A stretch of 6,309 bases of DNA, taken from DATKZS01 sp035527835 [NCBI: bacterium]. Lineage in GTDB: Bacteria; RBG-13-61-14. A program made the translations under genes and the position numbers. The notes below the pieces were generated by a model. That model worked only from the letters and a program-made list of their open reading frames with translations. It was not told where the DNA came from and did not search any database. Positions within the stretch are counted from its first letter, which is position 1. Each line of letters opens with the position of its first letter. Shown here piece by piece: positions 1-3,775 of the stretch. Where the stretch lies: the NCBI GenBank assembly GCA_035527835.1, contig DATKZS010000111.1, positions 1 through 6,309 of the forward strand, written 5' to 3'.

Positions 1-162
1 CCCGTCGGCCGGTTCGCCAAGCAGGTTGGGGCCAAAGCCCTGGAGTTGTTTTTTGTCCCGCCGCAAAGAAACACCAGAATTTACTTGGCGATTCTTGGCG
101 TTCTTGGCGCCTGGGCGGTTTTCTTAGCTCCTATTTTGGACAAGAGTGATACTAGATACTAA
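1..162 (+). other. Window edge; possible 3' end of an upstream gene
   Basis: Reading from base 1, the first plus-strand frame stays open to a TAA at 160-162. The first 16 or so codons have mostly G or C in the third position, as in the real genes here, and would read PVGRFAKQVGAKALELFF. After about base 55 the frame runs through the decayed inverted repeat and the ATACT repeat, so that part is unlikely to be conserved protein. The other plus-strand frames are also open for more than 120 bases, and a minus-strand frame over 1-69 is open too, so openness alone proves little. I do not recognise a family. It may be a C-terminal end into which a repeat has been placed, or simply non-coding. Confidence 0.2.
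61..111. repeat. Decayed inverted repeat, CGC(A/C)AAG family (copy 1)
   Basis: The right arm has three copies of CTTGGCG, at 84-90, 94-100 and 103-109, with spacings of 10 and 9 bases. The left arm at 61-80 (CCGCAAAGAA then ACACCAGAAT) follows the expected mirrored CGCCAAGAA pattern only loosely, with several mismatches. The unit, the 9-10 base periodicity and the T-rich centre match the three better copies in this window. I read it as a member of the same family whose left arm has degenerated and lost a unit. It lies downstream of dtd, on that gene's 3' side. Confidence 0.5.
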
Positions 163-167
163 ATACT
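149..167. repeat. Short heptamer tandem repeat (ATACTAR)
   Basis: ATACT occurs at 149, 156 and 163, an exact 7-base period over three units (ATACTAG, ATACTAA, ATACTGT). It ends two bases from the dtd stop codon, so it lies in the dtd 3' untranslated region. It is AT-rich against a GC-rich background. With only three units, chance cannot be excluded. Confidence 0.45.
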
Positions 168-168
168 G

Positions 169-618
169 TTAGAAGGTCTTCTTGCTGTCCAGGAGCAGCG
201 TCACCGGCCCCCGGTTCACCAGCGCCACGTCCATCATCGCCTGGAACCGGCCCGTCCGCACCGAAACGCCCCGTTCCTCCACCCCGCGCGCGAACTTCAA
301 GTACAACTCCCGCGCCTGCTCCGGACCCGCCGCGCCGGAGAACGACGGCCGCCGCCCCTTCCGGCAATCGCCCAGCAGCGTGAACTGCGACACCACCAAA
401 AGCTCGCCGCCGGACTCCTGAAGCGACCGGTTGAGCTTGCCCTCGTCGTCCTCGAACACCCGGAGGTTCACGATCTTCTCCGCCATCCACTCCGCGTCCG
501 CCTCGCTGTCATCACCCGCGACCCCCAGGAGCACCAGGAACCCGCGGCCGATCGCAGCCACCGTCTCGCCCTCGACCGCGACGCTCGCCTCCGAAACCCT
601 TTGCACCACCGCCCGCAT
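169..618 (-). CDS. dtd: D-aminoacyl-tRNA deacylase
   Basis: Dtd hydrolyses D-amino acids wrongly attached to tRNA, recycling the tRNA and keeping D-residues out of protein; it is a cytoplasmic homodimer. The 149-residue product matches the family's usual length of about 145-150. Visible landmarks are the N-terminus [18 protein letters not shown] at 77-81, GRRPSF at 88-93 and the Gly-cisPro motif GPVT at 137-140, which gives chiral selectivity. The residue before GPVT's glycine is Arg136, where E. coli Dtd has Asp (NDGPVT). The open frame extends 37 residues further upstream, but I chose ATG at 616-618 because AGGAGG lies 6 bases before it and family homology begins there. It is divergent from the nuclease-like gene. 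No clear intrinsic terminator follows; a heptamer repeat and a decayed inverted repeat do. Confidence 0.96.
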
Positions 619-624
619 CCTCGA

Positions 625-630
625 CCTCCT
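625..630 (-). promoter_or_regulatory. Ribosome binding site of dtd (decides start)
   Basis: CCTCCT on the plus strand reads AGGAGG on the minus strand, 6 bases before the ATG at 618. This perfect Shine-Dalgarno core rejects the longer reading frame that begins at 729. Confidence 0.9.
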
Positions 631-638
631 GAATCCAT

Positions 639-668
639 ATTCTAAGCGCACCACCGCCGCGCCGGCAA
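639..668 (-). promoter_or_regulatory. Putative promoter of dtd
   Basis: On the minus strand TTGCCG (663-668) and TAGAAT (639-644) are separated by 18 bases, a reasonable sigma-70-type pair (4/6 and 5/6 matches). Transcription would start near 631-633, leaving a very short leader that begins about at the Shine-Dalgarno sequence. This is prediction from sequence only. Confidence 0.45.
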
Positions 669-697
669 GACCGGGGACGGGCCCATCCATTTTTCGG

Positions 698-726
698 TTG
701 CTTTTTTCATCCCGAAACGGTATAAT
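698..726 (+). promoter_or_regulatory. Putative promoter of the nuclease-like gene
   Basis: TTGCTT at 698-703 and a perfect TATAAT at 721-726 are spaced by exactly 17 bases. The start point would be near 733, giving a leader of about 63 bases before the ATG at 796. It lies back to back with the putative dtd promoter, whose -35 element is about 30 bases away. Confidence 0.6.
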
Positions 727-738
727 CATGTTTACCGT

Positions 739-756
739 CCGGGGCCCTGGCCCCGG
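739..756 (+). promoter_or_regulatory. GC-rich hairpin in the 5' leader
   Basis: CCGGGGC (739-745) pairs perfectly with GCCCCGG (750-756) around a 4-base loop, CCTG. If the promoter at 698-726 is used, this very stable stem sits at about +6 of the transcript, roughly 30 bases before the Shine-Dalgarno sequence. No T-tract follows, so it is not an intrinsic terminator. It could stabilise the 5' end of the mRNA; this is inference. Confidence 0.45.
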
Positions 757-795
757 GCGGAAAACAGCGATCTAATGTTCCGGTGGAGGTGAGTC

Positions 796-1581
796 ATGAA
801 GCGGAAGATGCGGACTTTGGGATTGGTGATCGCTCTCCTGTTCATCAGCAGCGTGAGCCTGGCCGTGATGTACACCTGGACCGACCCGGACGGCAGCTAT
901 CACGCCACCGACCGTACCGACAAGCTCCCCCGGAAATACCGCGACCTTGTCCGCTACGACCTCGACCACTACACCACGCCCGCCGGGATCGGTTTTGACA
1001 AAGACGAGAAGGGCAACTTCATTTTTTACGACCACGCCTCGCCCGGCGCGGCCGCGGCCAAGCGCACTCCGCCGCCCGACGTCCCCGGACCGCCCGGCTC
1101 CGCGGTGACGCCCCAGCAGTTCCAGGAAATCCAGTTGCGTTATCATGCCTCGGGCCTGGACCCTCGGCCCCAGATTAACGAGGGCAAGGTCAAAAGGATC
1201 ATCTCCGGCGATACCTTCGAGCTGGACGACGGACAGAAAGTGACCTACGTCGGGATCGAGTTCCCCGATGAGCTCAAGGGCGACACCAAGGTCCACAAGG
1301 ACTCCGTCGAGTATCAGAAGAAGATCATGCAGGGCCGCACCGTGAACCTGATCTACGGGCTCCAGAAAACCGACGAGAAGGGCCGGCTCATGGCCTACGT
1401 CTTCGTGGGCAAGGACATGTTCGTGAACGCCGACCTGGTCATGAACGGCTACGCCCGCGTCAAGACCGGCGGTTCGCCCAACACCGAATACACCAAGCTC
1501 TTCCTCCGCCTCCAGGACTTCGCCAAGCGCAGCATGCTCGGCATGTGGGACGCCGGATCGGCCGCGCCGACCCAGAAGTAA
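796..1581 (+). CDS. Exported nuclease-fold (SNase-like) protein with DUF4124-like N-terminus
   Basis: The 261-residue product starts with a signal peptide (basic MKRKMR, hydrophobic core 7-20, likely cleavage after SLA at 21-23), so it should be periplasmic or secreted; there is no lipobox Cys. Residues 25-50 (YTWTDPDGSYHATD) resemble the DUF4124 module. A proline-rich linker at 84-105 leads to a staphylococcal-nuclease-like OB-fold domain at about 128-252. There GDT (138-140) keeps the position of a calcium-binding Asp, and KGR with Arg197 matches catalytic Arg87 of S. aureus nuclease. By my alignment the catalytic Arg35 position is Thr150 and Glu43 is Asp158 (TYVGIEFPD instead of the usual RLIGIDTPE), so nuclease activity is doubtful and a binding role is possible. 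GGAGG at 785-789 precedes ATG by 6 bases. It converges on dusB across an inverted repeat. Confidence 0.85.
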   Translation: MKRKMRTLGLVIALLFISSVSLAVMYTWTDPDGSYHATDRTDKLPRKYRDLVRYDLDHYTTPAGIGFDKDEKGNFIFYDHASPGAAAAKRTPPPDVPGPPGSAVTPQQFQEIQLRYHASGLDPRPQINEGKVKRIISGDTFELDDGQKVTYVGIEFPDELKGDTKVHKDSVEYQKKIMQGRTVNLIYGLQKTDEKGRLMAYVFVGKDMFVNADLVMNGYARVKTGGSPNTEYTKLFLRLQDFAKRSMLGMWDAGSAAPTQK

Positions 1582-1612
1582 AGGGATTCTGCGGGCGATG
1601 GATCCGCGGCTC

Positions 1613-1701
1613 TTTTCAACGCCAAGGCGCCAAGGCGCAGAGGTTTATTTATTCTAACAATATTATCGGACCTCTGCGCCTTGGCGCCTTGGCGTTGAAA
1701 A
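1613..1701. repeat. Long inverted repeat, CGC(A/C)AAG family (copy 2)
   Basis: Arms of 31 bases at 1613-1643 and 1671-1701 are perfect complements around an AT-rich 27-base loop. Each arm is a run of 8-base units: CGCCAAGG, CGCCAAGG, then CGCAGAGG next to the loop. Beyond the arms the match resumes after a 2-base bulge (CTC / GAG). It fills the gap between two convergent genes, 31 bases after the nuclease-like stop and 19 bases after the dusB stop. The T-run is on the 5' side and the A-run on the 3' side in both directions, so it is not a canonical intrinsic terminator, although such a long stem could still impede polymerase. Confidence 0.95.
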
Positions 1702-1720
1702 AAGAGCTTGTACCTTCACC

Positions 1721-2737
1721 TTACTCAGCAAAGTATTTCCCGACCATCTCCCTGATCTCGGCGGCGGTGCTTAATGTGTGCAGCTCGCGGCGCAGGTCGG
1801 CCGCGCGCGGCAGGCCCTTCGAGTACCACGCCAGGTGCTTGCGCATCTCGACCACGGCCCGCTTCTCCGGCATCAGGTCCAGCATCCACGAAAACAGCCG
1901 GCCCACGGCCTCCGCCCTCTCCGTCATGGAGGGGCGGCCGCTCCCGCGCCCACTGAGCGCCCGGAAGATCCAGGGCCCTCCCCTCATGCCCCGCGCCACC
2001 ATCACTCCCGCGCACCCGGTCTCATCCATCATCCGGGCCGCGTCCTCCGGCCGCAGGATGCCGCCGTTGCCGATCACCGGTATCTTCACCGCCTGCACCA
2101 CCGCGCGGATGCCCTCCAGGTCCACCTCCCCCGCGAAGCCCTGGGCCCGGGTCCGGCCGTGCACCGTGACCGCGTCCGCGCCCTCGCCCTCGCAAATCCG
2201 GGCCAGCTCCGCCGCGTTTTTCGAGGCGTGGTCCCAGCCGAGCCGCATCTTCACCGTGAGCGGCACCTTGACCGCGCCCCTGGTTTTTCTCACCATCTCG
2301 CCGGCGCGGGCAAGGTCCTGCATCAGCGCCGCGCCGCCGCCCCGCTTCACCACCTTCTTCACGGGACAGCCCATGTTGACGTCAATGATGTCGGCCTCCA
2401 AGGATGACAGGATGCGCGCGGCCTGCGCCATCTCCTCCGGGTCATGCCCGAAGAGCTGGATGCCCAGCGGCCGGTCGGCAGGCGCCGTCTTCAACGCGTT
2501 CAGCGTGTCGCCCCGCGCCTTGCCCCGCGCGATCGCCGCCGCGCTCACCATCTCCGTGAACGCCAGCGGCGCGCCCATCCGCCGGCACAGCATCCGCACC
2601 GGCCACGACGTGATCCCGGCCATCGGCGCCAGCACCACCGGCGGTTCGAACACCAGGTTCCCGATCTTCAACACGCCCGGGAGCGGAACCGCCGGGGCGC
2701 GGCCGGCCTGGGCAACCGTTTGTAGATCATTATTCAT
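1721..2737 (-). CDS. dusB: tRNA-dihydrouridine synthase (DusB/NifR3 type)
   Basis: Dus enzymes use FMN and NADPH to reduce specific uridines of tRNA to dihydrouridine in the cytoplasm. The 338-residue product has a TIM-barrel with the FMN motif APMAGIT (37-43), catalytic Cys124 in NMGCPVKKV, Lys163 in TVKMRLGWD, His193 in VHGRTR and the phosphate-site GNGGI (223-227). The C-terminal helical domain has RKHLAWYSKGLP (299-310), typical of DusB. A usual GR pair near the FMN phosphate reads AR (248-249), a mild change. Homology to E. coli DusB begins near residue 22, so the first 20 residues are an extension. No Shine-Dalgarno precedes the ATG; instead TATAAT lies 7 bases upstream, suggesting a leaderless message. 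A GTG at residue 22 is an alternative start, also without a good Shine-Dalgarno. It lies 127 bases downstream of tal on the same strand. Confidence 0.93.
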   Translation of the reverse strand: MNNDLQTVAQAGRAPAVPLPGVLKIGNLVFEPPVVLAPMAGITSWPVRMLCRRMGAPLAFTEMVSAAAIARGKARGDTLNALKTAPADRPLGIQLFGHDPEEMAQAARILSSLEADIIDVNMGCPVKKVVKRGGGAALMQDLARAGEMVRKTRGAVKVPLTVKMRLGWDHASKNAAELARICEGEGADAVTVHGRTRAQGFAGEVDLEGIRAVVQAVKIPVIGNGGILRPEDAARMMDETGCAGVMVARGMRGGPWIFRALSGRGSGRPSMTERAEAVGRLFSWMLDLMPEKRAVVEMRKHLAWYSKGLPRAADLRRELHTLSTAAEIREMVGKYFAE

Positions 2738-2744
2738 GACGCGA

Positions 2745-2750
2745 ATTATA
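2745..2750 (-). promoter_or_regulatory. Putative -10 element of a leaderless dusB message
   Basis: The minus strand reads TATAAT with 7 bases between it and the annotated ATG, which puts the expected start point on or next to the start codon. No convincing -35 lies 16-18 bases upstream (GCCTTT at 17); that sequence belongs to the adjacent inverted repeat. Chance occurrence in an AT-rich stretch is possible. Confidence 0.4.
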
Positions 2751-2756
2751 GATGTG

Positions 2757-2840
2757 TTTTTTCACGCAAAGGCGCAAAGGGCGCAGAGTCAAATTCAATT
2801 AATTTCTTCTCCGCGCCCTTTGCGCCTTTGCGTGAAAGAA
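2757..2840. repeat. Long inverted repeat, CGC(A/C)AAG family (copy 3)
   Basis: Perfect 25-base arms lie at 2760-2784 and 2813-2837. Pairing extends outward through one G-T wobble and inward past a single mismatch (2785/2812) to three more pairs, leaving an AT-rich loop of about 20 bases (2789-2808). The arm units are CGCAAAGG, CGCAAAGGG and a loop-side CGCAGAG. It sits between tal and dusB, which run in the same direction, starting 27 bases after the tal stop and ending 6 bases before the putative dusB -10 element. No T-tract of terminator type follows in either direction. Confidence 0.95.
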
Positions 2841-2864
2841 ATCTTTGCCTGTCCCCTCAAAGGT

Positions 2865-3518
2865 TTAGGGTAAAGAGTTCCCCGACTTTTTCCAGTCGTC
2901 CAGGAACGCCGCGATGCCCTTGTCCGTGAGCGGGTGCGAGGCGAGCTGCTTGATGACCTTGAACGGGATGGTCGCGATGTGCGCGCCCATCAGCGCCGCG
3001 TCCAGCACGTGAAGCGGGTTGCGGATCGAGGCCACGATGATCTCGGTCTTGAAGCCGTAGTTGTTATAAATCGTGACGAGCTGCTCGATCAGCTCCATGC
3101 CGTTGTGCCCGGCGTCGTCCAGCCTACCCACGAACGGGCTCGCGAAGCTCGCGCCCGCCTTGGCCGCCAAGAGGCCCTGCAGCGCAGAGAACACCAGGGT
3201 CACGTTGCAGCGGATCTTGTCCTGCTCCAGCACCTTAGCCGCCTTCATGCCCTCCACCGTCATCGGGATCTTGCACACGATGTTCTTGTGGATCTTGGAA
3301 AGCTGCCGGGCCTCCTTGATCATCCCCTCGTGGTCCAGCGCGATCACCTCCGCGCTGATCGGGCCGTCAACGATCCCCACGATCTCCCCGATCACGTCCT
3401 GGAACGGACGGCCCGTCTTCGCGCACAGCGACGGGTTCGTGGTCACCCCGTCAACCATGCCCATGGCCTTGGCCTCCCTGATCTCGGCCACGTCCGCGCT
3501 GTCAATGAAAATCTTCAT
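2865..3518 (-). CDS. tal: Small transaldolase (TalC/FSA-like family)
   Basis: Transaldolase moves a dihydroxyacetone unit between sugar phosphates in the non-oxidative pentose phosphate pathway, through a Schiff base on lysine, in the cytoplasm. The 217-residue product has the length of the small subfamily shared with fructose-6-phosphate aldolase (FSA). Visible are Asp6 in FIDSAD, TTNPSL (26-31), the Schiff-base Lys83 in CKIPMT and NVTLVF (105-110), like TalB's NLTLLF. Two positions argue for transaldolase over FSA: Glu57 (E. coli FSA has Gln59) and Phe129 in SPFVGR (FSA has Tyr131; TalB has Phe178). GGAGG lies 5 bases before the ATG. It diverges from the cyclase gene and could read through the inverted repeat into dusB. 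Confidence 0.95.
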
Positions 3519-3573
3519 CCCGTCCTCCCTGATTCATCATAAACCCGGCAGCAAGATGCCCCGCGCATTGCCT

Positions 3574-3604
3574 GTTATATCGCATGAAACCAGCGCCGTT
3601 GCAA
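3574..3604 (-). promoter_or_regulatory. Weak putative promoter of tal
   Basis: On the minus strand TTGCAA (3599-3604) and TATAAC (3574-3579) are 19 bases apart, slightly long. The leader to the tal ATG would be about 50 bases. The AT-rich TATAAC stands out from GC-rich surroundings, but the pair is not strong. Confidence 0.35.
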
Positions 3605-3652
3605 CCGGCGGAGCGATCCCGTCAGACATCCGAGAGGAGGCAGGATTTTTTA

Positions 3653-3729
3653 AGCCCAAAGACGCAAAGAACGCAAAGCAAAATCCAATAAAAGAATTCT
3701 TATCTTTGCGTTCTTTGCGTCTTTGCGCT
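3653..3729. repeat. Long inverted repeat, CGC(A/C)AAG family (copy 4)
   Basis: Perfect 22-base arms lie at 3657-3678 and 3704-3725, with three more pairs after one mismatch (3653-3655 with 3727-3729). The arms contain two ACGCAAAG units with 9-base spacing. The 25-base loop is AT-rich and itself contains the palindrome AAGAATTCTT. The element lies between the putative divergent promoters of tal and the cyclase, so it may not be transcribed from either. That placement is hard to reconcile with a terminator role. Confidence 0.95.
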
Positions 3730-3775
3730 CAACAAAAGGCCGAATGGCCCGGTCCGGCGGAAAAACGGGTCCCCG

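Follow-up and report, generated by a model that had tools for sequence, protein, structure and literature searches.

In repetitive extragenic palindromic (REP) sequences and in their paired form, REPINs, a conserved tetranucleotide of the GTAG type adjoins the palindrome; cyanobacteria are known to have heptamer repeats as well as small dispersed repeats, and a related kind of element, a miniature inverted-repeat transposable element (MITE) holding a minisatellite, has reportedly been described in one study. Here we analyze a family of long palindromes with arms built from short tandem units, found in a stretch of 6,309 nt (its full length, hereafter the window) and in the genomes of relatives, from which the genome-wide copy counts, co-occurrence data and site comparisons derive. 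The results indicate that the window palindromes are probably gene-less versions of a mobile palindromic element whose partner is a predicted nuclease of the GxxExxY family (TIGR04256, PF13366); in other genomes, the gene of this nuclease lies between arms of the same design.

REPINs are inverted doublets that form hairpins, lie mostly outside genes and are sometimes inserted into or next to each other (PMC3116915). The elements studied here are likewise short, mostly extragenic hairpin doublets in many copies, with mutual insertion and with the gene of a DNA-acting partner enzyme, but their arms are runs of direct 7-nt units that vary by lineage, and the partner is a predicted PD-(D/E)XK nuclease encoded between the arms instead of a Y1 transposase. 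In Geobacter metallireducens, three to five tandem repeats of 7–8 nt, mostly in opposite-strand pairs at variable distance, have been listed as predicted sites of a global regulator that IHF or HU may recognise (PMC2700814). Their class 2 consensus, TCTCCGTS[Y], fits on the other strand the CACGGAG arms reported below, whereas a nuclease gene, cargo in the loop and presence or absence at given sites are not mentioned in the part of that account considered here. Multicopy sequences of Geobacter are found in 12% of intergenic regions, several of them jointly in 31% of those (PMC2996986, part of the literature on G. metallireducens and G. bemidjiensis). Similar Geobacter repeats are therefore already in print, but within the open-access literature we found no paper linking GxxExxY to palindromes; two papers there name the family, one of them mentioning a GxxExxY-domain gene near a reverse transcriptase.

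Two further comparisons are relevant. The S23/IVP protein is known from the intervening sequences (IVS) of 23S rRNA, which are sporadic and for which mobility has been proposed (PMC4990558). In these IVS, too, a small gene occupies the loop between inverted arms, and the same protein family (PF05635) is found below between arms outside rRNA; however, IVS lie inside rRNA genes and are excised by RNase III, whereas the present elements are intergenic, three of the window copies having protein genes on both sides and the fourth adjoining one. MITEs are small, gene-less and present in many copies with inverted ends, but here neither a transposase parent nor a target duplication was identified, and the arms are common to a gene-bearing element whose gene encodes the putative nuclease.

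Palindromes of the window and their family

The long palindromes described in the original prediction are real, three of them being intact and one decayed. The intact copies lie at 1610–1704 (arms of 35 nt, 97% complementary, 25 nt between them; units CGCCAAG/CGCAGAG), 2757–2840 (arms of 32 nt, 94% complementary, 20 nt between; units CGCAAAG/CGCAGAG) and 3646–3736 (arms of 33 nt, 91% complementary, 25 nt between; units CGCAAAG). The copy at 61–111 has a single good arm, with three CTTGGCG units at 84–109, and a degenerate opposite arm. Folding as single-stranded DNA gave z values of -12.1, -10.5 and -6.9 for the intact copies in this order, with none of 200 dinucleotide shuffles equally stable, and of -2.0 for the decayed one, with seven of 200 shuffles equally stable. 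Each arm holds two or three direct units as first proposed, yet the unit is broader than anticipated, namely CGC(A/C)(A/G)AG with the third unit frequently CGCAGAG. The two-unit motif CGCMAAGNCGCMAAG, with at most one mismatch, has nine matches in the window against 0.01 expected.

The five genes of the window encode a D-aminoacyl-tRNA deacylase, an SNase-domain protein, DusB, a transaldolase/fructose-6-phosphate aldolase and a CHASE2/cyclase protein. In agreement with the original prediction, palindromes occupy spacers of every orientation, with the copy at 1613–1701 between the convergent SNase-like and DusB genes, that at 2757–2840 between the co-directional transaldolase and DusB genes and that at 3653–3729 between the divergent transaldolase and CHASE2-cyclase genes, while the divergent intergenic region at 622–795 is without a palindrome; the 61–111 copy adjoins one protein gene, its left neighbour being beyond the window edge. 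The loops are 80% AT, contain no gene and are mutually unrelated, as had also been noted (mean similarity 0.34 vs 0.36 for shuffled loops, three pairs). The GxxExxY motif occurs in none of the six frames of the window, and none of its five genes belongs to that family. A Rfam scan of the window returned no family at gathering score, a plasmid DNA search with one window palindrome gave just four weak records, and a simple terminator scan, limited to loops of 3–8 nt, skipped the palindromes, the 20–25 nt loops of which exceed its range. The peptides AKAQR and LRLCV occur in open frames of the window itself.

The closest relatives of the window DusB, at 50% identity, belong to G001 and G002, both uncultured deltaproteobacteria in which transaldolase and dusB are adjacent as well; the spacer between these genes measures 127 bp with the palindrome in the window, and 69 and 83 bp without palindrome in the relatives. 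A two-unit arm was present in none of the 80 dus loci examined. Elsewhere in the genomes, the pattern CGCAAAGN{0,2}CGCAAAG has 58 matches in G001, 51 in G002 and 52 in Geomonas diazotrophica (G009), with none for the reversed control in each. Overall it matched in nine of 22 genomes, the six besides these three having at most 13 matches, and the reversed control also matched in G018, G019 and G021. In a first large sample, made up of 48 genomes from the family that includes G009 (taken as Geobacteraceae), the three-unit pattern CRCRRAG x3 has 1574 matches vs 23 when reversed and is present in 45 of the genomes, so that the outcome which would have spoken against a repeat family, namely few other copies, is not what is seen in relatives. 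An arbitrary 400-kb stretch of G039 contains 26 inverted repeats scoring at least 15, compared with 0, 0 and 1 in three Markov controls. Among its nine repeats scoring at least 20, eight have tandem-unit arms by eye (CGCAAAG, CGTTCAA, AGGGAT) and the ninth is a GGGGGG repeat; with an extra CGCAAAG palindrome at score 15, nine of the 26 are of tandem-unit design. Predicted frames cover 0.00–0.57 of the arms of these nine palindromes and span 88% of the sample. The strict CGCAAAG palindrome pattern is also found in 19 IMG/VR contigs (L081–L099), in some of them several times.

GxxExxY genes between inverted arms

GxxExxY genes are found in 44 of the 48 Geobacteraceae genomes, and at 24 of 27 testable loci the gene is flanked by inverted arms, compared with 46 of 702 mispaired flanks and 2 of 42 Dus control genes. 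A second sample, 145 genomes of the phylum of G021 (entered via L073, Verrucomicrobia subdivision 3), gave 21 of 27 loci vs 45 of 702 mispaired flanks, which brings the pooled result to 45 of 54 vs 91 of 1404. Loci at contig edges were excluded from these counts (L229, L239 and L241 among Geobacteraceae; L358, L361 and L366 in the second sample). In an earlier sample of 12 genomes, scored more strictly and with L119 excluded, seven of 11 GxxExxY loci lay between arms, with none for the reversed control. Most arms consist of some three successive 7-nt units, from classes such as CACGGAG, CACAGAG, CGCAAAG, CGCAGAT and CAGGGAT; the CGCAAAG class of the window flanks GxxExxY at L227, L231, L233 and L246.

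At L197 (3053–4033, minus strand), a gene with a NucS C-terminal domain adjoins GxxExxY inside one CGCAAAG arm set. In G006 (contig C321, L112 957–2201; also L200), GxxExxY lies among CGCAGAG palindromes that are repeated in tandem every ~115 bp; a motif like GAGCGAAGCGAACGGGCGTGAG follows each of these palindromes, and a four-helix gene is present on the same 7.7-kb contig.

Across individual genomes, possession of GxxExxY also predicts whether the arm pattern occurs. Among the 145 genomes of the second sample, at least two matches occur in 54 of the 69 with GxxExxY vs 6 of the 76 without (p 4e-19), with totals of 1893 matches in the former and 54 in the latter. A dedicated co-occurring protein, such as the original prediction had suggested looking for, is supported. 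The four Geobacteraceae genomes without GxxExxY have 2, 0, 3 and 15 matches. Across the 48 genomes of this family, the Spearman coefficient of the palindrome count is 0.47 with genome size and 0.25 with four-helix genes.

The phylogeny of the protein follows the type of arm unit. A tree of 41 GxxExxY proteins requires five changes of unit label (AAG, GAG, GAT) vs a shuffled mean of 18.9, with none of 200 shuffles as low; 21 of the 62 proteins had been left out beforehand, 14 for weak arms and seven for other units. One clade, containing eight of the ten AAG rows, unites rows from the family of G009 with rows from the phylum of G021. The label of L236 was probably misassigned by the pattern, since its units read ATCTGAG like those of L237. 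Such agreement fits a protein and arms that work together and is also expected under mere joint inheritance.

In an alignment of 37 GxxExxY sequences, taken from loci with a plus-strand gene, the G, G, E and Y of the motif and the residues D67, E77, K79 and Q91 are invariant in all. The AlphaFold2 model of the protein has a mean pLDDT (predicted local distance difference test) of 95.7, and its top Foldseek matches are alkaline exonuclease (3syy, E 2e-4) and SSO0001 (4ic1, E 4e-4), the latter presumably a Cas4. VIA-align placed 4ic1 first (Z 9.5, root-mean-square deviation 4.1, 101 residues); Hjc and further Cas4 entries did not exceed Z 7, where the similarity may reflect the common fold only. 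Comparison with the sequences of solved structures gave weak matches only (E 0.056 and 0.99), and a PADLOC search with three GxxExxY proteins gave no match. The model indicates that GxxExxY is a small PD-(D/E)XK nuclease with a RecB/Cas4-like fold.

Orthologous sites, nesting and cargo genes

The comparison of G009 with 20 relatives covered four intergenic sites within a single gene cluster. At one of these, D-E, a CGCAAAG palindrome with uninterrupted loop is present in G035 and G042, and G009 has the same palindrome with a AACAGGGAT palindrome inside the loop, while the aligned gene blocks of G048, G031 and G044 are separated by 26, 48 and 49 bp without any palindrome; comparison of the filled and empty states leaves room for no target duplication or for one of at most ~3 nt, the ends of the element being themselves palindromic. 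At the E-F site, the 21 species show CAACGTT arms in eight cases, CTACGTT in three and AGATAAAG in two, with one arm in two species and none in six, although G009, scored among the latter, shows AGAT-type arms by eye. Three unit types occupy one orthologous site across eight species. At the B-C site, G038 has two palindrome sets around a gene, and G039 (92% identical) one set and no gene. Nesting is also seen at L158 (2440–5060), with unit types placed loop in loop, AGGGAT within CGCAAAG. A GGGGGG-unit palindromic repeat, CCCCCCTTTGCGAAGGGGGG ... GGGGGGATTTG, is present or absent at several sites between G038 and G039 (L379–L398 vs L399–L418).

The loops of CGCAAAG copies in G038 are related to one another, with seven of 105 pairs above 0.6 (none when shuffled) and a mean of 0.42 vs 0.13 for shuffled loops. 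Related pairs number three of 120 in G039, none of 190 in G009 and none of three in the window.

Genes of other families occupy a similar position. Four-helix genes (TIGR02436) are found in 43 of the 48 Geobacteraceae genomes and lie between inverted tandem-unit arms at 20 of 26 loci vs 50 of 650 mispaired flanks (L326, L343 and L348 left out). By strict pattern, arms of the CRCRRAG/GAT type are present at 14 of 27 GxxExxY loci and at none of the 26 four-helix loci, hence the unit class of the window goes with GxxExxY and not with the four-helix genes. The D-E site of G028 (L296, contig C11), a normal intergenic region outside rRNA, contains a 23S-IVP gene (PF05635) between CAACGTT arms. At the B-C and C-D sites, small genes lie between or beside palindrome copies in G037, G038, G042 and G043; Pfam analysis, restricted to the cargo proteins of G037 and G043, identified a nucleotidyltransferase, a weak HEPN-type partner (E 0.004, below cut-off) and a coiled-coil protein. 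At L285 and L290 (G037 and G038, B-C/C-D), small coiled-coil and nucleotidyltransferase/HEPN-like genes are flanked by two similar palindromes, an arrangement resembling a composite transposon.

Mobile elements, passengers or host sites

The element would consist of two inverted arms, each with two to four direct units of ~7 nt spaced at 8–10 nt, around a loop formed by a gene or by a short spacer, which in the window is AT-rich, the unit class C[AG]C[AG][AG]AG corresponding to GxxExxY. When single-stranded, the arms would fold into a hairpin or cruciform, which a GxxExxY protein of the matching lineage may recognise and cut; the freed hairpin could then enter single-stranded DNA at another position by copying or joining, for instance within another palindrome's loop. 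Copies without a gene, such as those of the window, would rely on a nuclease whose gene is at a different place in the genome, by analogy with the presumed use by REPINs of RAYT, the REP-associated tyrosine transposase. Recognition, cleavage and movement by GxxExxY, together with the single-stranded route, are what we infer; the family itself, the gene between its arms, the co-occurrence, the match of tree and units, the presence or absence at sites and the nesting are what was observed. That the transaldolase-dusB palindrome of the window is absent from G001 and G002, though both carry the family elsewhere, is a point in favour of mobility.

Several observations weigh against this interpretation. 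The link with GxxExxY is known from relatives and not from the window's own organism. In the 12-genome sample, four of the 11 GxxExxY loci fall below the score, including those of G002 and G006; the G002 gene is preceded by two CGCAAAG arms, the next arm has the same orientation, and an inverted closing arm appears only beyond a second, NucS-like gene. At L234, L240, L242 and L374 the units face away from the GxxExxY gene. In the second sample, 15 of the 69 genomes with GxxExxY have fewer than two matches and six of the 76 without it have two or more, and the genomes are related by kinship, hence the p-values of co-occurrence are too small; among Geobacteraceae, the correlation between GxxExxY and palindrome counts is weak (Spearman 0.32, p 0.026), and G053 has its 15 matches despite having no GxxExxY. 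Regarding mobility, no insertion event within a species was seen, nor could a target duplication be pinned down. The G038/G039 gaps examined contained no CGCAAAG palindromes, this comparison covering gaps below 2600 bases in both genomes and outside aligned blocks, with the B-C site falling outside it. The relatedness of the G038 loops is partly due to a common nested AGGGAT palindrome, and the loops of the window copies are unrelated.

The principal alternative is that the palindromes are mobile but moved by another agent, GxxExxY and four-helix IVP genes being passengers between the arms. That four-helix/23S-IVP genes are bracketed in the same way by arms of other unit types would be expected of passengers, as would the NucS-like, nucleotidyltransferase/HEPN-like and coiled-coil genes found between arms or palindrome copies, and co-inheritance alone could produce the agreement between tree and units. 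However, a mere passenger need not predict the arm pattern genome by genome, nor need its catalytic residues be invariant, and GxxExxY and four-helix genes use different unit classes, so we regard this alternative as unlikely, if the most serious of those considered. In a second alternative, the agent is RAYT or another Y1 transposase, which would make the palindromes REP/REPIN-type elements. REPINs are likewise hairpin-forming inverted doublets, mostly outside genes and sometimes nested (PMC3116915), and Y1_Tnp, searched for as PF01797 only, is common in both samples (45 of the 48 Geobacteraceae genomes and 102 of the 145 others); in the latter it is, taken alone, associated with the arm pattern (55 of 102 vs 5 of 43, p 1e-6). 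The association is no longer significant once GxxExxY is known, be it among GxxExxY-positive (50 of 62 vs 4 of 7, p 0.17) or GxxExxY-negative genomes (5 of 40 vs 1 of 36, p 0.20), whereas the effect of GxxExxY is significant among both Y1-positive (50 of 62 vs 5 of 40) and Y1-negative genomes (4 of 7 vs 1 of 36). Moreover, G009, G031 and G064 have no Y1_Tnp hit and yet 41, 12 and 10 three-unit matches, G009 also having the 52 two-unit matches reported above, and the correlation between Y1 and palindrome counts in the 48 genomes is -0.04 (Spearman). RAYT was consequently rejected as the driver, and a movement by Y1 enzymes appears highly improbable. The REP-like nature proposed in the original prediction thus stands with respect to copy number and presence or absence at orthologous sites, but the expected association with RAYT does not. 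The best reading is that these elements work like REPINs and nevertheless fail the RAYT test.

Alternatively, the palindromes could be sites that serve the host and are kept by selection, as bidirectional terminators or as binding sites of nucleoid proteins or global regulators (IHF/HU). The paired inverted tandem repeats of G. metallireducens have been annotated as predicted regulator sites (PMC2700814), the stems are very stable, and at the E-F site of the relatives of G009 the elements start beside a GGAGG-like ribosome-binding site, which they leave intact. Yet the window copies lie between convergent, co-directional and divergent genes alike, orthologous sites in relatives have no palindrome or one of another unit type, and the palindromes nest within each other and carry genes, which renders a host function improbable as the explanation.

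Beyond the window, a wider interpretation of the mobile element paired with GxxExxY can be put forward tentatively. GxxExxY proteins might be the dedicated mobility enzymes of transposase-free hairpin elements, a RecB/Cas4-like nuclease processing the folded, lineage-specific arms of tandem units, and the elements with four-helix IVP genes, including the 23S rRNA IVS, might form a sister class having the same architecture with another protein.

GxxExxY is a widespread family named only for its motif, and its link with the palindromes provides a substrate that can be tested. In at least two distant groups of bacteria, intergenic space is filled with palindromes of this kind, which have stood unexplained there and now have a candidate enzyme other than a transposase. 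The 23S rRNA IVS, long suspected to be mobile, may belong to a broader class of elements bracketed by palindromes.

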